A DNA stretch of 64,000 bases from contig NZ_JQMQ01000005.1 of NCBI RefSeq assembly GCF_000744815.1, forward strand, positions 2,860,055-2,924,054, given 5' to 3'. The DNA comes from Phaeacidiphilus oryzae TH49. GTDB lineage: Bacteria; Actinomycetota; Actinomycetes; Streptomycetales; Streptomycetaceae. The translations under genes and the position numbers were made by a program. The notes beneath the pieces were generated by a model that searched no databases, was not told the origin of the DNA, and saw only the letters and a program-made list of their open reading frames with translations. Positions 13,571 through 33,677 of this stretch are shown here, piece after piece; within the stretch, counting starts at the first letter, position 1; each line of letters opens with the position of its first letter.

Positions 13571-15181
13571 CTACGCCCCGACGTCGACGGTGTCGCCGTC
13601 CTCCGCGGCGATGCGCTTGGCCTCCAGCAGCGCCGGGTTCAGCCACCCGCTGTTGTAGCCCCAGTAGTAGAACGCGAGCCCGGAGATCACGACCACGGCG
13701 ATGTCCACGCCGGCCGGCAGCCAGCCCAGCCCGCCGAACTCCTTGCCGCCGACGAGGGAGATGAACGCCATCCAGACCAGGTAGCAGACCAGCCAGGCCC
13801 CGGACTTGAGGTTCTGGCCCAGCTGGGTGCCGTTCTTCCACTCGTAGAAGGCGTACACCGGCAGCCCGACCGCCATGATCAGGATGACCTCGCCGGTCAG
13901 CGGCCACTTGGCCCAGTACAGCACCAGCGTGCCGAAGACGAAGCCGAGCGGAGCCAGCAGCGGCAGCGCCTTGATCCGCACCGGCCGGTGGAGCTCCGGC
14001 GCCAGCTTCCGCAGCACCGCGACCGCGACCGGGCCGGTGACATAGGAGATGACGGTGGCCACCGAGACGATGCTGGCCAGCGAGCCCCAGCCGCGGAAGA
14101 CGGCCAGGAAGACGAAGGCCACCCCCAGGTTGAGCAGCAGCGCCGGGCGGGGCACGCCGGTCCGCGGGTCGACCTTGCCGAAGATGCCCGGCAGGTGCCC
14201 GTTCCGCTGCACGCCGTGGATCATGCGGGAGGTGGTCGCGGCATAGGTCATGCCGGTGCCGGACGGGGAGACGAAGGCGTCCGCGTAGAGGAGGATCGCC
14301 AGCCAGTTCAGCATCAGCGCGCTCGCCAGGTCGGCGAACGGCGAGGAGAAGTTCAGTGCGGACCAGCCGCCGTGCGCCAGCGTGGTCGGCGAGACGCCGA
14401 GCAGGAAGGCGAACTGCAGGCCGATGTAGATCACCAGCGCGATGGCGATCGAGCCGAGGACGGCGATCGGCAGCGAGCGCTTGGGGTTGCGGGCCTCGGC
14501 GGCCATGTTGATCGGCGACTGGAAGCCGTTGAAGGCCCAGACGATGCCGGAGGTGGCGACCGCGGTGAAGACCGCGGAGACGCCCTTCGGCGCGAAGCCG
14601 CCGGCCGAGGTCAGGTTCGAGGTGTGGTGCGAGGTGACCAGCAGGCCGACCACCGTCAGGGTCGGGATGACCAGCTTGAAGACGGTGATGGCGGTGTTGG
14701 TCTTGGCGAACAGCGACACCGCGAACCAGTTCAGCGCGAAGTACACCAGCATCAGCACGGTGGCCGCGGCCACGCCGGTGAAGGTGAGCTGGCCGCTGCC
14801 GGCGTTGTAGAGCCCGTGGGTCCAGCCGAAGCTCCAGGAGCTCATGTACTGGATCGAGGCGGTGGCCTCGCCGGGGATCACCGAGACGATCGCGATCCAG
14901 TTCGCCCAGGCCGCCAGGTAGCCGGTCAGCGACCCGTGCGAGTACTGCCCGAAGCGGACCATTCCGCCCGCCTCCGGGAACATCGAGCCGAGCTCGGTGT
15001 AGGACAGGGCGATGACGAGCGCGACGACCGCGCCGATGACCCACGCGAAGATCGCCGCCGGGCCGGCGATCACAGCCGCCTTCTGTGCTCCGAAGAGCCA
15101 GCCGGAGCCGATGATCGAGCCGAGACCTGTGGCGGTCAGGGCGATGGTGCCCAGTGACCTCCGATAGTTCGAACCGGACAC
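13571..15181 (-). CDS. APC-superfamily amino acid permease (YveA-like)
   Basis: About 536 residues with about 12 hydrophobic segments. TM1 carries the APC glycine motif (TATGLGSIIGSGWLFGAQ) followed by ELGSMFPEAGGMVRFGQYSH. Sequence style is closest to aspartate-proton symporters of the YveA type, so an acidic amino acid is the likeliest substrate, by family inference. GTG 15181 has GGGAG 5 nt upstream; a TTG about 30 bp further up is possible. The cytoplasmic C-terminus ends in an acidic tail. It follows the NCS1 permease gene on the same strand but is separated from it by about 450 bp containing a dispersed repeat, so it is probably transcribed separately. Confidence 0.86.
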   Translation of the reverse strand: MSGSNYRRSLGTIALTATGLGSIIGSGWLFGAQKAAVIAGPAAIFAWVIGAVVALVIALSYTELGSMFPEAGGMVRFGQYSHGSLTGYLAAWANWIAIVSVIPGEATASIQYMSSWSFGWTHGLYNAGSGQLTFTGVAAATVLMLVYFALNWFAVSLFAKTNTAITVFKLVIPTLTVVGLLVTSHHTSNLTSAGGFAPKGVSAVFTAVATSGIVWAFNGFQSPINMAAEARNPKRSLPIAVLGSIAIALVIYIGLQFAFLLGVSPTTLAHGGWSALNFSSPFADLASALMLNWLAILLYADAFVSPSGTGMTYAATTSRMIHGVQRNGHLPGIFGKVDPRTGVPRPALLLNLGVAFVFLAVFRGWGSLASIVSVATVISYVTGPVAVAVLRKLAPELHRPVRIKALPLLAPLGFVFGTLVLYWAKWPLTGEVILIMAVGLPVYAFYEWKNGTQLGQNLKSGAWLVCYLVWMAFISLVGGKEFGGLGWLPAGVDIAVVVISGLAFYYWGYNSGWLNPALLEAKRIAAEDGDTVDVGA

Positions 15182-15440
15182 TTCACTCCCAAACCTGCGT
15201 GGTGCGGACGTCAAGGCGATGTGGTGATGTATCAGTCTGACACTCCGCCAAGCGAGACAAACGCGAGGAGTCTGTCCGAATAGCGGCGAGCTTGGCAACC
15301 CTTCAACAAGAATTCGTGAATGTGGGGTATCCCACGCTTCGCCCGCTTCCGGGAACCGACACGGCCGCTGGAGCGTCACTTGGCGGACCCGATTGCGCCC
15401 GGTCGGGGGATGCGGCCGGGGCCCGGGCCGACGCCTCTGG
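15182..15440. other. Upstream region of the APC permease gene
   Basis: No gene is supported. AT content rises at 15225-15335, the expected promoter position, but no hexamer pair is convincing. GTGGGGTATCCCAC at 15321-15334 is a perfect 14-bp palindrome that could be an operator. Confidence 0.35.
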
Positions 15441-15610
15441 CGCAGCGCCGCAGGCACGAGCAAGGGGCGCGGGGAACCGCGCGGCCAACCCGCTTCGGCG
15501 CCGCACTCGGCAACGTCCACCGGGTCGCAACCCGGACTCCGCTGCCGACCACAGACCGTAGACGGCTGGTCGCGCGGTTCCCCGCGCCCCTTACTCGGCC
15601 CTACGGGCCT
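15441..15610. repeat. Dispersed inverted-repeat element, copy 2
   Basis: The arm at 15464-15486 is perfectly complementary to 15568-15590 (GGGGCGCGGGGAACCGCGCG type). The enclosed 81 nt hold a GCCG-CACT-CGGC hairpin and the hairpin CCGGGTCGCAACCCGG. The second is homologous in place to the GGGTTGCAACCC palindromes of copies 1 and 4. Outer flanks (CGCAGCGCCGCAGGCACGAG) resemble those of copies 1 and 4. It sits just past the 3' end of the NCS1 permease gene. Confidence 0.8.
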
Positions 15611-15637: not shown

Positions 15638-17323
15638 TCACCCCCGCATCGCCGGCATCCCCATCAGCACCGGCTCCGCGGCCTCGCCGCGCTTGCAGGC
15701 CTCGCCGCACGCGGACTCCAGCGAGCAGCACAGCGAGCAGATGTCGCCCCCGTGGTGCGGGCAGTCGCCCGCCACGTCCGGGGACTCGTACCCGCCCGCG
15801 CAGACCACGCACTGCCGGGTCTCCGAACTGTCGTCCGCCGCAAGCGGGTTGGGCCGGGCGAGGTAGTACCGCCCGCGGGTCGCGAAGGCGATCAGCGGGT
15901 TCAGCAGCATCGCCAGCGCCAGCGCGACGAAGGGGCTGAACGCCTTGCCGTAGTCCCCGAAGGCGCCGAAGAAGCCGGCCAGCGACACCGCCGAGGCGAC
16001 GATCATCGCCCCGAACCCGGCCGGGTTGACCGAGCGGAGGTACGCCCGCTTGAACTCGATGTACTTGGGGCTGAGCCCCAGCGGCTTACTGATCATCAGG
16101 TCGGCGGCGACGGCGCCGATCCAGGCGATGGCCACGTTGGAGTAGAAGCCGAGCAGCGTGCTGAGCGCGCTGAACATGTTCAGCTCCATCAGCAGCAGTG
16201 AGACCCCGCAGTTGAGGAAGATGTACCAGACCCGGCCCGGGTGCCGGTGGGTGAGCCGGGAGAAGAAGTTCGACCAGGACAGCGAGCCGCTGTAGGCGTT
16301 GGTCGAGTTGATCTTCACCTGCGAGACGATCACGAAGAGCGCCGCCAGCGGCAGCGCCACCCCGCCGAACCACGGCCGCAGGGCGTGGAGGATCTGGTCG
16401 ATCGGCTCCAGTGCCCGCGCCTCGCCGACCGCGCCCAGCGCGGCCACCGCCAGCAGCCCGCCGCCGAGCTGCTTGATCGCCCCGATCACCACCCAGCCGG
16501 GCCCCGCGGCCAGCACCGCGAGGTTCCAGCGCCGCCGGTTCACCGCGGTCTTCCGCGGCATGAAGCGGAGGTAGTCGGCCTGCTCGCCGATCTGCGCGAT
16601 GAGCGAAAGGGCGACTCCGGCGCCCATCCCGAAGCCGTACCAGCTGAAGCCCCCGGCCCCGCCGCCCGTCCCGCCGAAGTGCGCGAACCGGGAGTACGCC
16701 CCGGGGTCGGCGACGGCCAGCGCGACGAACGGCAGCACCAGCCCGAGCAGCCAGACCGGCTGGGTCCAGGCCTGCATCCGGGCCAGCCAGTTCATCCCCT
16801 TGAAGACGATCGGGATCACGATCAGCGTGGTGATCAGATACCCGACCGGCAGCGGCACGTGGAGGGCCCGCTGCAGCGCCTGGGCCATGATCGAGCCCTC
16901 GGTGGCGAAGAAGATGAAGGTGAAGCTGGCGTAGATGACGGAGGTCAGTGTCGAGCCCAGGTAGCCGAAGCCGCAGCCGCGGGTCAGCAGGTCCATGTCG
17001 ATGCCGTTGGCGGCGCAGGCCCGGGCGATCGGTATCCCGGTCAGGAAGATCACCACGGCCGCGGCCAGCACCGAGGCGACCGCGTTGGTGAAGCCGTAGG
17101 AGAGGGCGATGGAGGCGCCGATCGCGTAGTCGGCCAGATAGGCGATGCCGCCGAGGGCGGTGGAGGCCACCGCGAGCGGGGTCCAGCGCCGGAAGGAGTG
17201 CGGGGCGTACCGCAGCGAGTAGTCCTCCAGGCTCTCGTCCGCGGCCGCCCTGGCGTACGAGCGGCGGCGGCCCTCGGCCTCCGGCGGGGTCCCGGGCTGG
17301 GTGGGGGTTCTCGGGATCGTCAT
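15638..17323 (-). CDS. NCS1-family permease with Cys-rich C-terminal tail
   Basis: A 561-residue protein with about 12 membrane segments of the nucleobase/cation symporter 1 type. It opens with ESLEDYSLRYAPHSFRRW, has the GFGYLGSTLTS re-entrant region, and QVKINSTNAYSGSLSWSNFF near residue 360. The unusual part is the last 55 residues: CVVCAGGYESPDVAGDCPHH, then CSLCCSLESACGEACKRG. These nine Cys and two His residues, in CxxC-like pairs, would form a zinc or redox site on the cytoplasmic side. Substrate may be a purine, pyrimidine, hydantoin or related ring. ATG 17323 is the chosen start although no good ribosome site precedes it. The gene is divergent from the GabP-like permease gene. Confidence 0.85.
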   Translation of the reverse strand: MTIPRTPTQPGTPPEAEGRRRSYARAAADESLEDYSLRYAPHSFRRWTPLAVASTALGGIAYLADYAIGASIALSYGFTNAVASVLAAAVVIFLTGIPIARACAANGIDMDLLTRGCGFGYLGSTLTSVIYASFTFIFFATEGSIMAQALQRALHVPLPVGYLITTLIVIPIVFKGMNWLARMQAWTQPVWLLGLVLPFVALAVADPGAYSRFAHFGGTGGGAGGFSWYGFGMGAGVALSLIAQIGEQADYLRFMPRKTAVNRRRWNLAVLAAGPGWVVIGAIKQLGGGLLAVAALGAVGEARALEPIDQILHALRPWFGGVALPLAALFVIVSQVKINSTNAYSGSLSWSNFFSRLTHRHPGRVWYIFLNCGVSLLLMELNMFSALSTLLGFYSNVAIAWIGAVAADLMISKPLGLSPKYIEFKRAYLRSVNPAGFGAMIVASAVSLAGFFGAFGDYGKAFSPFVALALAMLLNPLIAFATRGRYYLARPNPLAADDSSETRQCVVCAGGYESPDVAGDCPHHGGDICSLCCSLESACGEACKRGEAAEPVLMGMPAMRG

Positions 17324-17522
17324 GCCGTCGGACGGTAGGGAGGCCGGGTAACACGCTCCGTACCTGCGGCGTTTCGGAGAGGTAAGAGATCCCGCGGAGA
17401 AACGTGACATAGGCGCCGATATTCGGAATAGGGGTTACCGATTCCTGAACCGTCCACTAAGTTCTCGCCCCAACGTCTGCGCCGCGGCACCCCCGCGGCG
17501 CTGTTGGACGAAGGGAATCGAC

Positions 17523-18977
17523 ATGCACTCCCCCGTCACCGCCGGGTCCGCGGACGGCACCACAGCCGCCGGCGACGGCCTCAGGAGCGGGCTGAAGAGC
17601 CGCCATCTATCGATGATCTCGATCGGCGGCGTGATCGGTGCTGGCCTCTTCGTGGGCTCCGGCGCCGGGATCAATGCGGCCGGACCCGGAATCCTGATCT
17701 CCTACGCTCTCACCGGCCTGATGATCGTGCTGGTGATGCGGATGCTCGGCGAGATGGCCGCGGCGGACCCGCAGTCCGGCTCCTTCTCGGCCTACGCCGA
17801 CCGCGGCCTCGGCCGCTGGGCGGGCTTCTCGATCGGCTGGCTCTACTGGTTCTTCTGGGTCGTCGTCCTCGCCGTGGAGTCCACCGCGGGCGGCGCGATC
17901 CTCCACGGCTGGGTGCCGGGGGTGCCGCAGTGGGGCTGGACGCTGGCCGTGATGCTGCTGCTGACCGGCAGCAACCTGGTGTCGGTGGGCTCCTACGGCG
18001 AGTTCGAGTTCTGGTTCGCCGGGATCAAGGTGGCCGCGATCGCGGTCTTCCTGGTGATCGGCGTACTGGCCGCGTTCGGCGTGCTGCCGGGCTCGGACGC
18101 CGGATCGCACGCGGTCGGGATGGCCAACCTCACCGGGCACGGAGGGTTCCTGCCGCACGGCTCGGGGGCGATCCTCTCCGGCATGCTGCTGGTCGCCTTC
18201 TCCTTCATGGGCAGCGAGATCGTGACGCTGGCGGCGGGCGAGTCCAAGAACCCGGAGAAGGCCGTCACCAAGGCCACCAACAGCGTGATCTGGCGGGTCG
18301 CCCTCTTCTACCTGGGCTCCATCCTGATCGTGGTCGCCCTGCTGCCGTGGGACTCCTCGGCCGTCAAGGCCAGCCCGTACGTGGCCGTCCTGAACCACCT
18401 GGGGATCCCCGGGGCCGGCCAGGTGATGAACGTGATCGTGCTGACCGCCGTGCTGTCCTGCTTCAACTCCGGCCTGTACACGGCCTCCCGGATGGCGTTC
18501 TCGCTCTCGCTGCGCGGGGACGCGCCCAAGTCCTTCGCCAGGACCGGGAAGTCGGGCGTGCCGTGGGTCGCGGTGCTCGCCTCGGTGGTGGTCGGCTTCG
18601 TCGCCGTCATCTTCAACTACACCTCGCCGGACACCGTCTTCCAGTTCCTGCTGAACTCCTCGGGCGCGGTGGCGCTCTTCGTCTGGCTGGCGATCTGCGT
18701 GACACAGCTGCGGATGCGCAAGGTGATGGAGCGCGAGCGGAACGGCGACCTGCCGGTCCGGATGTGGCTCTACCCGTGGCTGACCTGGATCACCATCGCC
18801 TTCATCCTCTTCATCGTCGGCTACATGCTGACCGACTCGACCGGCCGCCCGCAGATGCTTCTCTCCCTGCTGGCCCTGGCCATCACCCTGGCCGCGTCGC
18901 TGATCGTCTCCCACCGCGCAAAGTCCCGCGAGCCCAAATCGCTGGACACAGCGACCCCACCAAGGATCGACGCCTGA
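17523..18977 (+). CDS. GabP/AAT-type amino acid permease
   Basis: A 484-residue APC permease with about 12 membrane segments. GLKSRHLSMISIGGVIGAGLF is the hallmark of the amino acid transporter (AAT) family that includes GABA, proline and aromatic amino acid permeases. Further matches are MRMLGEMAAADPQSGSFSAY and LAAGESKNPEKAVTKATNSV. ATG 17523 has AAGGGA 6 nt upstream. It is transcribed away from the NCS1 permease; the 199-bp divergent region is AT-rich around 17400-17460. A dispersed repeat follows the stop codon. Substrate cannot be fixed from sequence; GABA or another amino acid is likely. Confidence 0.9.
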   Translation: MHSPVTAGSADGTTAAGDGLRSGLKSRHLSMISIGGVIGAGLFVGSGAGINAAGPGILISYALTGLMIVLVMRMLGEMAAADPQSGSFSAYADRGLGRWAGFSIGWLYWFFWVVVLAVESTAGGAILHGWVPGVPQWGWTLAVMLLLTGSNLVSVGSYGEFEFWFAGIKVAAIAVFLVIGVLAAFGVLPGSDAGSHAVGMANLTGHGGFLPHGSGAILSGMLLVAFSFMGSEIVTLAAGESKNPEKAVTKATNSVIWRVALFYLGSILIVVALLPWDSSAVKASPYVAVLNHLGIPGAGQVMNVIVLTAVLSCFNSGLYTASRMAFSLSLRGDAPKSFARTGKSGVPWVAVLASVVVGFVAVIFNYTSPDTVFQFLLNSSGAVALFVWLAICVTQLRMRKVMERERNGDLPVRMWLYPWLTWITIAFILFIVGYMLTDSTGRPQMLLSLLALAITLAASLIVSHRAKSREPKSLDTATPPRIDA

Positions 18978-30271: not shown

Positions 30272-32701
30272 TCACTTCAGGACGACGATCCCGTCCGTCG
30301 TGATGGTGGGCCGGCCGCTGGTGCCGACGACCACGATCTTCAGGGTGTGGGTGCCGCTGCTCGACCAGGACTTGGTCCAGATCGCCTGGCGGTAGAGGGT
30401 GCTGGCGGACTTCAGGTCCACCGTGGACAGCTTCACCCCGTCCACGTAGACGTAGACCTGCCCGGAGGTGGAGGCCCGGGAGACCACCCAGGCCACCGAC
30501 CGGCCGGTGAAGGTCCAGCTGATCGAGGCGCCCTTGCTGCCGCTGCTGTACGAGTAGCCGCCCAGGTAGCTGGAGCTCGACCGCTTGGTCCAGGTGCCGG
30601 TCCGGGTGGTCGAGGTCTCCTGGACGATCGAGGTGCTGCGGGCCACCGAGGCGGTGGCGTAGTTGCCCGCCCAGTCGGTCGCCTTGAACGCCCAGGTGGT
30701 GCTGGCGCCGACCTTGGCCCAGGCGTTCCAGTAGGTGGTGCTCAGCGCGAAGTTGCCGGTGCTCGGGCTGGTCGCGGCGAAGGTGCGCAGCGCGGTGTTG
30801 TCCGTCGCCTTCCAGTTCACGCCGACCGGGGCCGAGGTGCTGGAGACCGTGCCGGTGCGCAGGGCCGCGTTCGGCGCGGTGGTGAAGACCGGCTTGGTGG
30901 TGTCCGCGACGACGGTGGCCGCCGCCGAGGTGCTGGTCCCGCCGCGGGCGTGCACCGCGCGGACGGTGACCGAGTGGGTGCCGGCCGCCAGGCTGAGCGC
31001 CAGCGAGCGGGTGCTCGCGCTCGGGCTGGCCACCACCTTGCCGTCGACCAGCACGTCGAACCTCCGCAGCAGCGCGGACGGCCAGCTCTCCGACCAGGTG
31101 ACGGTCGCCTTGCCGGTGGTGTACCAGGTGCTGCCGTTCTTGTTCGCCCCGGTCATCCCGGTGACCGCGGGCGCGGGCGCGGGGCCCTCGGCGTAGCTGC
31201 GGATGCTCGCCAGCTGCGCGTACAGGTCGTCGCCCGGGCACTCGGTGGCGTAGCCGTCGCGGTGGCCGGAGATCGCCGGGAAGTCGTAGACCTGGCCGGC
31301 GACGAAGTGCCGCGGCGTGGTGCTGGTGGACTTGTAGCCGTTGGTCGCGGCGTTCTGGGTGAAGCCGGCCGTCAGGTACGTCAGCTGCGCGGGGTCGATG
31401 CCGTACATGCCGAACTTCCAGTCGGCGAGCGCGGCGAGCGAGGTGAGGACGGCGGTCGGGGCGCTGGTGGTGGTGTAGGTGCCGAGGACGGCCACGCCCA
31501 TCGTGTCGGTGTTCCACCCGTAGGTGTGGGCGCCGATCACCGGCAGGGCCTCACCGCCGCCGTTGTCCAGGCCTCCCCAGCGGCCCTCGAAGATGGTGCC
31601 GCACTTGTCGACCATGAAGTTGTAGCCCAGGTCCCGCCAGCCGTTGACCTGCACGTGGTACGTGTAGTCGGCCTGGATCAGGGCGGCCGATCCGTTGGCG
31701 TTGGTCGGGTCGGTGCTGCAGACGTAGCTGTTGGTCTGGTCGGTGTGGTGGACCCACATCTCCTTGACGCCGTCCGGCGAGTAGTCCGGCAGCGTCTGCT
31801 CGCGCAGGGTCTCGTCGGCGCCCCAGCCGGCCCGGTCCACGATGGGCGGCTTGGGCGCGGTGGAGGTGGGCGCGGGCGGGACGGTCGCGGTGGGGCTGGT
31901 GGTGGCGCTGGCGGAGGCGGAAGCGCTGGTGCTGGTGCTCGCGCTCGCCGAACCGGTGTCGCTCGCCGAGGCGCTCGCGCTGGCCGACGCGCTGTCCGTG
32001 GCGGTGGCCGAGTCGGTGGCGGAGGCCGAGTCAGTGGCGGTCGCGGTCGCGTCCATCGCGTACCCGGCCGCCTGCATCCCCGATCCGGAGGGCGAGCCGG
32101 CGGAGGACGAGTCGGTGCGGGTCACCGTCCCCAGGTCGCCGGAGGAGACCAGGTTGAGCCGCAGCCCCTTGGGCAGCGCCCGGCCCGGCTTGTCGGAGAG
32201 CACCCGCACCTCGACGCCGTCGGACGGCCCGGTCCACAGCGGCTCGGTGGAGCCGTGCTCGGTCCGGCCCTCGGCGGCGCCCGGGTCCGGCGCGGTGTCG
32301 CTCGCGTCCACGGACTGCCAGTCCGTCCAGGCGCCGGTGGACATGCTCTTGGTGCGGATCTGGACGGTGCCCGAGATCTGCGCGTGCGGGTCCGTCCAGG
32401 AGACCCCGACCAGGTTGAACGGCGAGGTCGAGCGCTGCCCGAGACCCGCCGCCGGAGCCCCGGCGTACCGGCCGCCGAGACGCAGCGAGGAGCCGGAGGG
32501 AAGATCCGCGAGCGTGGTGGCCGCCAGCTTGGCGGCGACTCGGGCGTGGCCGCGCAGCGCCGCGTTCGCGCCGCTCCCGTCGGTGCCGGCGTAGGCGACG
32601 GCGGCGATCCCGCCGCCGGCTACCAGGACCGTGCCGACCCCGATCCAGGCCTTCGCCTTGAGCGGTATGGACCGCCGACCATGTGCACTCCCCTTTGGCA
32701 T
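30272..32701 (-). CDS. Secreted/anchored PGRP-domain N-acetylmuramoyl-L-alanine amidase
   Basis: An 809-residue protein. N-terminal signal or anchor (KAWIGVGTVLVAGGGIAAVAYA, about 17-38), an N-terminal beta-rich region (about 60-205), a Ser/Ala/Thr-rich linker (about 215-275), then a PGRP amidase domain (about 285-480). Zinc ligands are visible: His in MWVHHTDQTN, His in PAISGHRDGYA and Cys in ATECPGDDLY; Tyr/His helpers are likely. Two beta-sandwich repeats (about 490-650) and a C-terminal beta domain (about 655-809) follow and may bind wall glycans. It cleaves peptide stems from peptidoglycan outside the cell. ATG 32701 has AGGA about 6 nt upstream. Confidence 0.9.
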   Translation of the reverse strand: MPKGSAHGRRSIPLKAKAWIGVGTVLVAGGGIAAVAYAGTDGSGANAALRGHARVAAKLAATTLADLPSGSSLRLGGRYAGAPAAGLGQRSTSPFNLVGVSWTDPHAQISGTVQIRTKSMSTGAWTDWQSVDASDTAPDPGAAEGRTEHGSTEPLWTGPSDGVEVRVLSDKPGRALPKGLRLNLVSSGDLGTVTRTDSSSAGSPSGSGMQAAGYAMDATATATDSASATDSATATDSASASASASASDTGSASASTSTSASASASATTSPTATVPPAPTSTAPKPPIVDRAGWGADETLREQTLPDYSPDGVKEMWVHHTDQTNSYVCSTDPTNANGSAALIQADYTYHVQVNGWRDLGYNFMVDKCGTIFEGRWGGLDNGGGEALPVIGAHTYGWNTDTMGVAVLGTYTTTSAPTAVLTSLAALADWKFGMYGIDPAQLTYLTAGFTQNAATNGYKSTSTTPRHFVAGQVYDFPAISGHRDGYATECPGDDLYAQLASIRSYAEGPAPAPAVTGMTGANKNGSTWYTTGKATVTWSESWPSALLRRFDVLVDGKVVASPSASTRSLALSLAAGTHSVTVRAVHARGGTSTSAAATVVADTTKPVFTTAPNAALRTGTVSSTSAPVGVNWKATDNTALRTFAATSPSTGNFALSTTYWNAWAKVGASTTWAFKATDWAGNYATASVARSTSIVQETSTTRTGTWTKRSSSSYLGGYSYSSGSKGASISWTFTGRSVAWVVSRASTSGQVYVYVDGVKLSTVDLKSASTLYRQAIWTKSWSSSGTHTLKIVVVGTSGRPTITTDGIVVLK

Positions 32702-32948
32702 GCCCGTCCTTCACTCCGGTTTCACCGCGTGACTGCGCGGAAACCTGCGCGTGCAGGTACCGCCGGAGCCTACGCACAAAAAAGCAGCCAGGTTCTGTCG
32801 TAAACCGTTCCACAGGCCACTGATACGAAAGCGATATCCAACAGCCCCATCCACCCCGTCCGCCGTCTCCGGCCACACCCGTCCCGCGACCCCAACTTCC
32901 GCTCCGCCGACCCGACTTGACTGGCCGTCGGGAAATCGCGCAAACCCC
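32702..32948. other. Divergent intergenic region between amidase and PadR genes
   Basis: No gene is supported. AT content is high near 32745-32850, where the amidase promoter is expected; hexamers are ambiguous. The PadR promoter and operator begin at 32949. Confidence 0.4.
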
Positions 32949-33023: not shown

Positions 33024-33677
33024 ATGGCCAAGCGGCGCCCAGTGGCAAACCTCCTCGCCCTCGCGGTGCTGGCCACGGTCGTCCAACGGCCCATGCACCC
33101 CTACGAGATGGCCTCCCTGCTGCGCGCCCGCGGCAAGGACGCGGACATGCCGATCAAGTGGGGATCGCTCTACACGGTCGTGCGGAACCTGACCAAGCAC
33201 GGCTTCCTGGAGGTCGAGGACACCACCCGGGAGGGCGGCCGCCCGGAGCGGACCGTCTACCGGATCACCGAGGCCGGCCACGCCGAACTGGTGGACTGGG
33301 TACGCGAGTTGGTCTCCGTGCCGGAGACCGAGCACACCCGCTTCAAGGCCGGACTCTCCGTCCTGGCCACCCTGCCGCCGGACGAGGCGACGGAGCTGCT
33401 GCGCCGGCGGCTCGCCTCCCTGGAGCGGTCCACCGCCGAGGCCCGCGCCTCGATGGAGCGGTACGGCAGCACGGTCCCCCGCCTCTTCCTGATCGAGGAC
33501 GAGTACCAACTCGCCGTCCTTCAGGCGGAGTCGGACTGGATCCGCGGACTGATCGAGGAGCTGGAGTCCGGCTCCTTCCCCCAGCTGGCCGTCTGGCGGA
33601 CCTGGCACGAGACCGGCGAGCCCCCGGCCGAACTGGCCGAACCGGCAGAACCGGCGAAGCACGGCGGCACGGACTGA
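33024..33677 (+). CDS. PadR-family transcriptional regulator
   Basis: A 217-residue regulator. ALAVLATVVQRPMHPYEMAS, then IKWGSLYTVVRNLTKHGFLEVE and GGRPERTVYRITEAGHAEL, form the PadR winged helix (residues 8-90). The C-terminal helical half (about 95-205) is the Vir_C-like dimerisation domain. ATG 33024 has AGGAG 8 nt upstream. Members often repress a neighbouring transporter or oxidoreductase; here the FAD monooxygenase gene downstream, about 180 bp away, is the nearest candidate target. A dyad at its own promoter suggests autoregulation. Confidence 0.9.
   Translation: MAKRRPVANLLALAVLATVVQRPMHPYEMASLLRARGKDADMPIKWGSLYTVVRNLTKHGFLEVEDTTREGGRPERTVYRITEAGHAELVDWVRELVSVPETEHTRFKAGLSVLATLPPDEATELLRRRLASLERSTAEARASMERYGSTVPRLFLIEDEYQLAVLQAESDWIRGLIEELESGSFPQLAVWRTWHETGEPPAELAEPAEPAKHGGTD

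Follow-up and report, generated by a model that had tools for sequence, protein, structure and literature searches.

The question raised by this locus is why an actinobacterial membrane transporter should carry, beyond its last helix, a short tail crowded with cysteines, and whether such a tail makes the protein a sensor as well as a carrier. The gene lies in a stretch of 64,000 nucleotides from Phaeacidiphilus oryzae TH49 (contig NZ_JQMQ01000005.1, positions 2,860,055 to 2,924,054), called here the window, and its features are collected in Table 1. A preliminary description, made from the sequence alone, had presented the product as an NCS1 nucleobase permease whose tail could bind zinc or sense redox, giving a transporter-sensor (transceptor). 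The open reading frame begins at an ATG at 17321-17323; an alternative longer reading from 17410 would cross the GlnR-type box, which makes 17323 the likelier start. On either side lie permease-like genes of the amino-acid/polyamine type, named by reading of their ORF sequences (13571-15520, minus strand, and 17523-18977, plus strand), and the same genome encodes a paralogue, 46% identical, with the same Cys tail.

Table 1. Features of the permease gene, in window coordinates.
Feature	Position	Strand	Basis
NCS1-type permease with eight-Cys tail, 561 aa	15638..17323	-	ORF, sequence; fold match to Mhp1/CodB; orthologues
Transporter core, about residues 38-490, LeuT/Mhp1-type helical fold	15854..17212	-	AlphaFold2 model; CodB alignment
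C-terminal tail, residues 491-561, presumably on the cytoplasmic side	15641..15853	-	Sequence; pLDDT <50
Eight-Cys cluster, residues 505-543	15695..15811	-	Invariant in 16/16 rows of alignment A1
Short C-terminal end past the last Cys, PVLMGMPAMRG in the window protein	15641..15694	-	PVLLGMPT-type in some orthologues
GlnR-type box CTTACCTCTCCGAAAC, 8/9 consensus bases, 48 bp upstream of the ATG	17371..17386	-	

The tail comprises about 71 residues after the last helix, with cysteines at positions 505, 508, 521, 529, 532, 533, 539 and 543 and histidines at 523 and 524. Nine Cys and two His had been announced; the tail and both histidines are there, eight cysteines are counted rather than nine, and the histidines are not conserved. 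In an alignment (A1) of 16 rows, comprising the window protein, four stand-alone actinobacterial proteins and eleven kinase-type proteins, the eight cysteines are invariant in every row and the histidines are not. The same eight are present in 29/29 of the best Streptomycetaceae orthologue loci (62-78% identical to the window protein; four come from genomes also in A1), in many of which the second His is replaced by Gln or Arg. The cysteines are thus strictly kept among orthologues, the point on which the preliminary description had staked its proposal, and judged from these alignments their conservation is far beyond chance. It was also right that no kinase is fused to the window protein, which ends 18 residues past its last Cys; in the 29 orthologue loci 18-28 residues follow that Cys, then a stop, with no kinase.

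Across the wider family, all eight cysteines were found in 70/70 distinct kinase-type and 28/49 distinct stand-alone proteins. Three further kinase-type proteins, parsed separately (L191, L194 and L010), also have eight, which brings the count to 73/73; two loci cut by contig ends before the tail (L019, L020) lie outside every Cys count. Residue 524 is Tyr in 70/70 distinct kinase-type proteins and His in 78% of the 28 stand-alone full-tail proteins. In 299 Pseudomonadota genomes a profile of the tail (A2) matched 43 times, in 39 of them; 42 matches (E ≤6.8e-18) fall at the end of family members and one is weak (G879, E 0.005). In 246 Actinomycetota genomes it matched 10 times, in 9 genomes, and nine of these matches are on family members. 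The tenth (G237; L210 9417-9491) is an incomplete Cys tail whose frame holds no recognisable permease, and it sits between formamidase (FmdA/FmdB) and urease genes of an actinobacterial genome.

The transporter part was assigned by its predicted fold and through its relatives. With an AlphaFold2 model of the window protein (mean pLDDT 67.2, pTM 0.70), rows 1-5 of the Foldseek search are Mhp1 and CodB (best 2jln, E 1.9e-8). In VIA-align, whose ranking covers only the folds on its own list, Mhp1 and CodB hold four of the top five ranks, CodB with Z 28.3 and rmsd 3.7 over 386 aligned residues spanning residues 38-486, and Mhp1 with Z 27.0, 25.6 and 23.0. SLC5 and NCS1 folds are related, and SLC5-type structures rank below NCS1 in this comparison, CHT1 at Z 20.7 and NIS at Z 20.4 against 28.3 for CodB. 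The window protein itself has no match to PF02133 at E up to 1 and none in NCBIfam, and a PF02133 match is likewise absent in L042, L062 and the kinase-type L012; a Klebsiella relative about 51% identical to the window protein (L040) scores 37.7 bits and L061 scores 27.0 bits, with a cut-off of 23.5. The NCS1 label is therefore supported by modelled fold and by homology through relatives, and not by a family match of the window protein's own. Mhp1 (hydantoin) and CodB (cytosine) have the fold in common with it at 15-19% identity in the structural alignments, with the Cys tail outside the aligned core, and their substrates differ from the urea or amide proposed here. That ordinary permeases end within a few residues was borne out by four of five distant tail-less NCS1-like proteins, which stop 1-2 residues past position 490; the fifth ends 31 residues past the position aligned with residue 490, and all five comparisons are approximate, as the alignments are at 24-29% identity.

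At E up to 1e-10 the protein has matches in 19/396 genomes of Actinomycetota and 57/398 of Pseudomonadota, and within the window's own family in 86/249 genomes; some of these are fragments or distant matches. Plasmid records that match at E up to 1e-5 number 531, of which 342 are from Klebsiella. Strong matches (E ≤8.7e-123) number 57 in the 398 Pseudomonadota genomes. Of these 55 were opened, leaving out G633 (already included as L017) and a second G863 copy, and each of the 55 is a fusion of this permease and tail with a histidine kinase. Of eight weaker Pseudomonadota rows, five were opened (L199-L203), and these have neither a tail nor a marker of urea genes; the other three are G700, G874 and a weak row of G952. 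The preliminary description had pointed to kinase- or cyclase-fused versions as something to look for: the kinase form is common in Pseudomonadota, and no cyclase form occurs among the loci examined. Among the first 18 loci, the proteobacterial ones long enough to judge continue into a hybrid kinase, as exemplified by L012, which has the Pfam domains HisKA, HATPase_c and Response_reg and no Pfam match in its tail part. By BLAST to L012, HisKA-like and HATPase-like regions are present in 72/73 kinase-type proteins and a receiver in 70/73; the exception, L011, ends with its contig before the kinase. Two hydrophobic stretches lie between tail and kinase in 72 of the 73 proteins, and three in the remaining one. 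Two shorter kinase-type relatives without a receiver (L160 8501-11182 and L178 7665-10361) each lie about 2 kb from an FmdA gene, with no LuxR-type regulator within 8 kb.

The substrate was approached through gene neighbours, by seeking urease, UrtA-E, FmdA, AmiE and AmiF as markers within 8 kb; the bit-score cut-offs and the 8 kb distance were chosen ad hoc, and the comparison loci for marker frequency are five tail-less loci only. A urease, urtABCDE, formamidase or aliphatic amidase gene lies within this distance in 53/55 Pseudomonadota kinase-type loci (51 of 53 loci counted together, plus L191 and L194), and the two marker-free loci (L173, L198) lie at contig ends. The 53 loci counted include 46 with urt, 36 with FmdA, 10 with urease and 51 with a LuxR-type regulator. 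A Klebsiella plasmid (L043) carries the order amiF-urtEDCBA, kinase-fused protein, regulator, and further annotated neighbourhoods come from B. vietnamiensis, Mitsuaria (with urease), Paraburkholderia and Methylosinus. In a Methylovirgula plasmid (L042 3287-9620), a kinase-fused protein, a regulator, a stand-alone full-tail permease, a formamidase and an amidase form one cluster, possibly a sensor plus transporter pair.

Stand-alone members have such neighbours less often. A marker was found in 12/49 distinct ones (L040, L042, L044, L045, L049-L052, L058, L061, L129 and L140, the last by a weak 31% UrtA-like match), and within 8 kb none was found for the other 37, the window gene among them; in the window clade 2/20 distinct loci have one, including the weak match just named. 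The other is an orthologue 75% identical to the window protein (L129), which lies 174 bp from ureA, beside ureABC. Loci L049-L052 are also beside ureABC, the Klebsiella gene L040 adjoins urease genes, the Acinetobacter gene L044 lies beside urease genes, and that of Tsukamurella (L045) is near a zinc-ribbon gene and fmdA. The P. oryzae genome has two ureC-like genes, at C5:148821-150518 (64%) and C5:5778167-5779846 (48% identical to the query), both unlinked to the window gene, and its FmdA-like matches are weak. Judged by gene neighbours, the nucleobase label of the preliminary description probably hides a urea or short-amide substrate, and the kinase-fused relatives, with the same permease and tail, point to a little-described family for urea or amide uptake and sensing.

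Nitrogen control is suggested by the region upstream of the gene. Passages in PMC10704036 and PMC3087709 give the S. coelicolor GlnR box as gTnAc-n6-GaAAc and place urease among the targets of GlnR in both S. coelicolor and S. venezuelae. The upstream regions of 15 of the 20 distinct orthologue loci were scanned (L130 and L137-L140 were left out, the anchor motif being missing), and GlnR-type boxes were seen in these 15 related, hence not independent, loci as follows: seven perfect and at a similar distance, three at 8/9 (the window gene, L135 and L129, the last on the other strand) and five at 7/9, which is background level. Over the whole window, both strands, five sites have at least 8 matches, the window gene's box among them. 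A perfect GlnR-type box, GTGACTGCGCGGAAAC, is present at 32729-32744 on the plus strand, between a peptidoglycan-amidase-like gene (30272-32701, minus strand) and a PadR-like regulator gene (33024-33677, plus strand), both named by reading of the ORFs. Parts of PMC4222082 and PMC4617892 list two M. smegmatis genes, msmeg_3402 (cytosine permease) and msmeg_3403 (formamidase), as induced by nitrogen shortage.

As to what the tail does, its two CxxC knuckles (C505-x2-C508 and C529-x2-C532) and the way in which cysteines have been lost are the most informative features. Among the 49 distinct stand-alone proteins, reduced tails are of the CHVC...C.TH...CSLC types, which lack the last three Cys (n=8 distinct), of the CVSC...S.KH...CSLCK type (n=2 distinct, Klebsiella and Acinetobacter) and of the CTSSAL type, with one of eight Cys left (n=4 distinct); L063 has two knuckles only, L052 has a frame-shifted tail, and five distant proteins have no tail. 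Members with four or five Cys retain both knuckles together. The losses come in blocks, C508, C529 and C532 together and C533, C539 and C543 together, and this joint loss argues for two metal sites, for which we propose C505, C508, C529 and C532 as site A and C521, C533, C539 and C543 as site B. The tail is most likely a zinc-binding module holding two Zn(II), as far as its sequence allows a judgement, and zinc would fit both the CxxC/CxxC pairs and the block-wise loss. In the CTSSAL members the tail is otherwise preserved, so the module can persist after its cysteines have gone, and a stand-alone group that has kept the tail and lost most or nearly all of them indicates that metal is not needed by every member. 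When the long rows are left off the tree, one change of state suffices to account for the reduced-tail members, a count that leaves out L052 and is made on a tree from which L061 and L063 are absent. In both structure predictions the pLDDT is below 50 over nearly all tail residues. The window tail has no Pfam match, and among 15 tails two families match 1/15 each (best E 0.044); a PDB profile search with the tail gave zinc fingers at a best E of 0.023 over 15 profile positions, so that no solved or Pfam zinc domain convincingly like the tail was found.

The order of events was read from two quick trees of the transporter part, with the tail left out, run with and without long rows; they have no bootstrap, long branches and an uncertain root, and in one of them five outgroup rows do not fall on one side of any branch. 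In both, a single branch with SH-aLRT 99 puts 49/49 kinase-type rows on the same side. Full tails occur in stand-alone members as distant as 34-35% identity, and both sides of the kinase branch carry the tail. This favours a tail that came first and a kinase that came later, on an insecure root.

Taken together, the account that we regard as having somewhat better than even chances is that of an NCS1-type permease that is under nitrogen control and takes up urea or a short-chain amide, with a tail that serves as a structural metal module and that later became the link between permease and kinase. Under nitrogen shortage GlnR would turn the gene on, the permease would import urea or the amide, and ammonium would be freed by a urease or amidase whose gene lies in another part of the genome. 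The tail would form a small cytoplasmic module with a zinc-ribbon-like site made of the four knuckle cysteines, the remaining four forming a second metal site, and it would probably pack beneath the permease, serving there as a platform for structure and regulation. In Pseudomonadota, the two hydrophobic stretches, membrane-like in character, connect permease and module to a histidine kinase, in most cases a hybrid one. This kinase probably informs the LuxR-type regulator of urea or amide binding, and the regulator in turn would control the adjoining urt-fmd or urease genes. The word transceptor fits these kinase-fused relatives, and the window protein is at most a candidate for that name.

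Other readings were weighed against this account. As regards the substrate, the permease might instead carry allantoin, hydantoin, a nucleobase or some other nitrogen compound, with a chance well short of even: public records name some relatives allantoin or cytosine permease and most stand-alone members are not beside urea genes, but those names look automatic, and genes for urease, Urt proteins, formamidase and amidase are neighbours of the fused members and of several that stand alone. As regards signalling, a comparably tentative reading is that of a separate class of NCS1 transceptors, in which a two-metal module reads the conformation of the permease and preceded a single kinase fusion, the kinase-less members regulating uptake or signalling in trans. 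It is unlikely that the stand-alone protein itself is a true transceptor whose metal tail docks onto a kinase or regulator encoded apart from it and reports the flux of transport in trans. The same module stands between permease and kinase in the kinase-type relatives, and in the window clade the cysteines are fully kept with no kinase attached; yet no partner kinase was identified among the gene neighbours, where the conserved genes, NUDIX-like, PP2C-like and RpiB-like by reading of their sequences, are present at fewer than half of the loci and do not belong to two-component systems.

The redox sensing proposed in the preliminary description would make the tail a switch: under oxidative stress, disulphides between paired cysteines would gate transport, a thought that eight clustered cysteines with an adjacent CC pair might invite. 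We consider this improbable, as the block-wise retention and loss, together with the knuckles kept in the four- and five-Cys members, fit metal sites, Cys loss was seen in none of the kinase-type proteins examined, and the neighbours concern urea and amides rather than redox; no support for it was found. That the window tail is a relic of a lost kinase fusion deserves hardly any credence. The fused proteins do carry the same module, but a single branch has all the fusions to one side (99% SH-aLRT, with and without long rows, the rooting being uncertain), full tails occur in stand-alone members outside it, including those at 34-35% identity, and no Cys decay is seen in the 29 orthologue loci.

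Among known systems, the closest parallel to the kinase-fused relatives is given by the SLC5/STAC kinases CbrA, CrbS and RpuS, described in parts of PMC13022988, PMC9100948 and PMC5715377, which likewise combine permease, small cytoplasmic module and histidine kinase and in some cases a LuxR-family regulator. The relatives described here appear to differ in having an NCS1 rather than an SLC5 fold and a 40-residue eight-Cys cluster in place of the four-helix STAC bundle; they also have two extra hydrophobic stretches before the kinase, and the window protein differs further in having no kinase. In CbrA, according to a section of PMC13022988, the STAC module docks under the permease, and by analogy the eight-Cys module could read permease conformation. 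Caution against taking the permease as the sensor comes from a passage in PMC9100948, where the permease part of CbrA is reported as not essential for signal perception. Another example is Ks-Amt5, in which a nitrogen-compound transporter domain is likewise fused to a kinase; that domain is of the Amt type, and the portions of PMC5764959 and PMC8534201 that describe it mention no Cys module. In Ectopseudomonas guguanensis G3 a hybrid kinase and a LuxR-type regulator lie by urtABCDE (PMC13296017), a likeness of gene neighbourhood, and the relevant part of that paper mentions neither an NCS1 domain nor a Cys module. The urea cluster of Klebsiella CG307 (UrtA, UrtB, UrtC, AmiF; PMC13060141) resembles the plasmid order amiF-urtEDCBA by gene names; L043 has a kinase-fused relative there, whereas the term "histidine kinase" is absent from the main text of that paper. 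GrtK of Burkholderia glumae was considered as a family member and rejected, since the PilS-like membrane domain and length of 427 aa given in part of PMC12918730 rule it out. Searches of the open-licence PMC literature brought up no description of an NCS1-kinase fusion or of the eight-Cys module.

If this account is true, a candidate sensor of urea or short amides stands beside the urt, urease and formamidase genes of many Pseudomonadota, and also on clinical Klebsiella plasmids, in whose records it is called "ATP-binding protein" or "ArcB". It would likewise suggest that some proteins recorded as "cytosine" and "allantoin" permeases are misnamed. Finally, the family would represent a second design for coupling a permease to a kinase, beside that of the SLC5-STAC proteins, with stand-alone and fused forms to compare.
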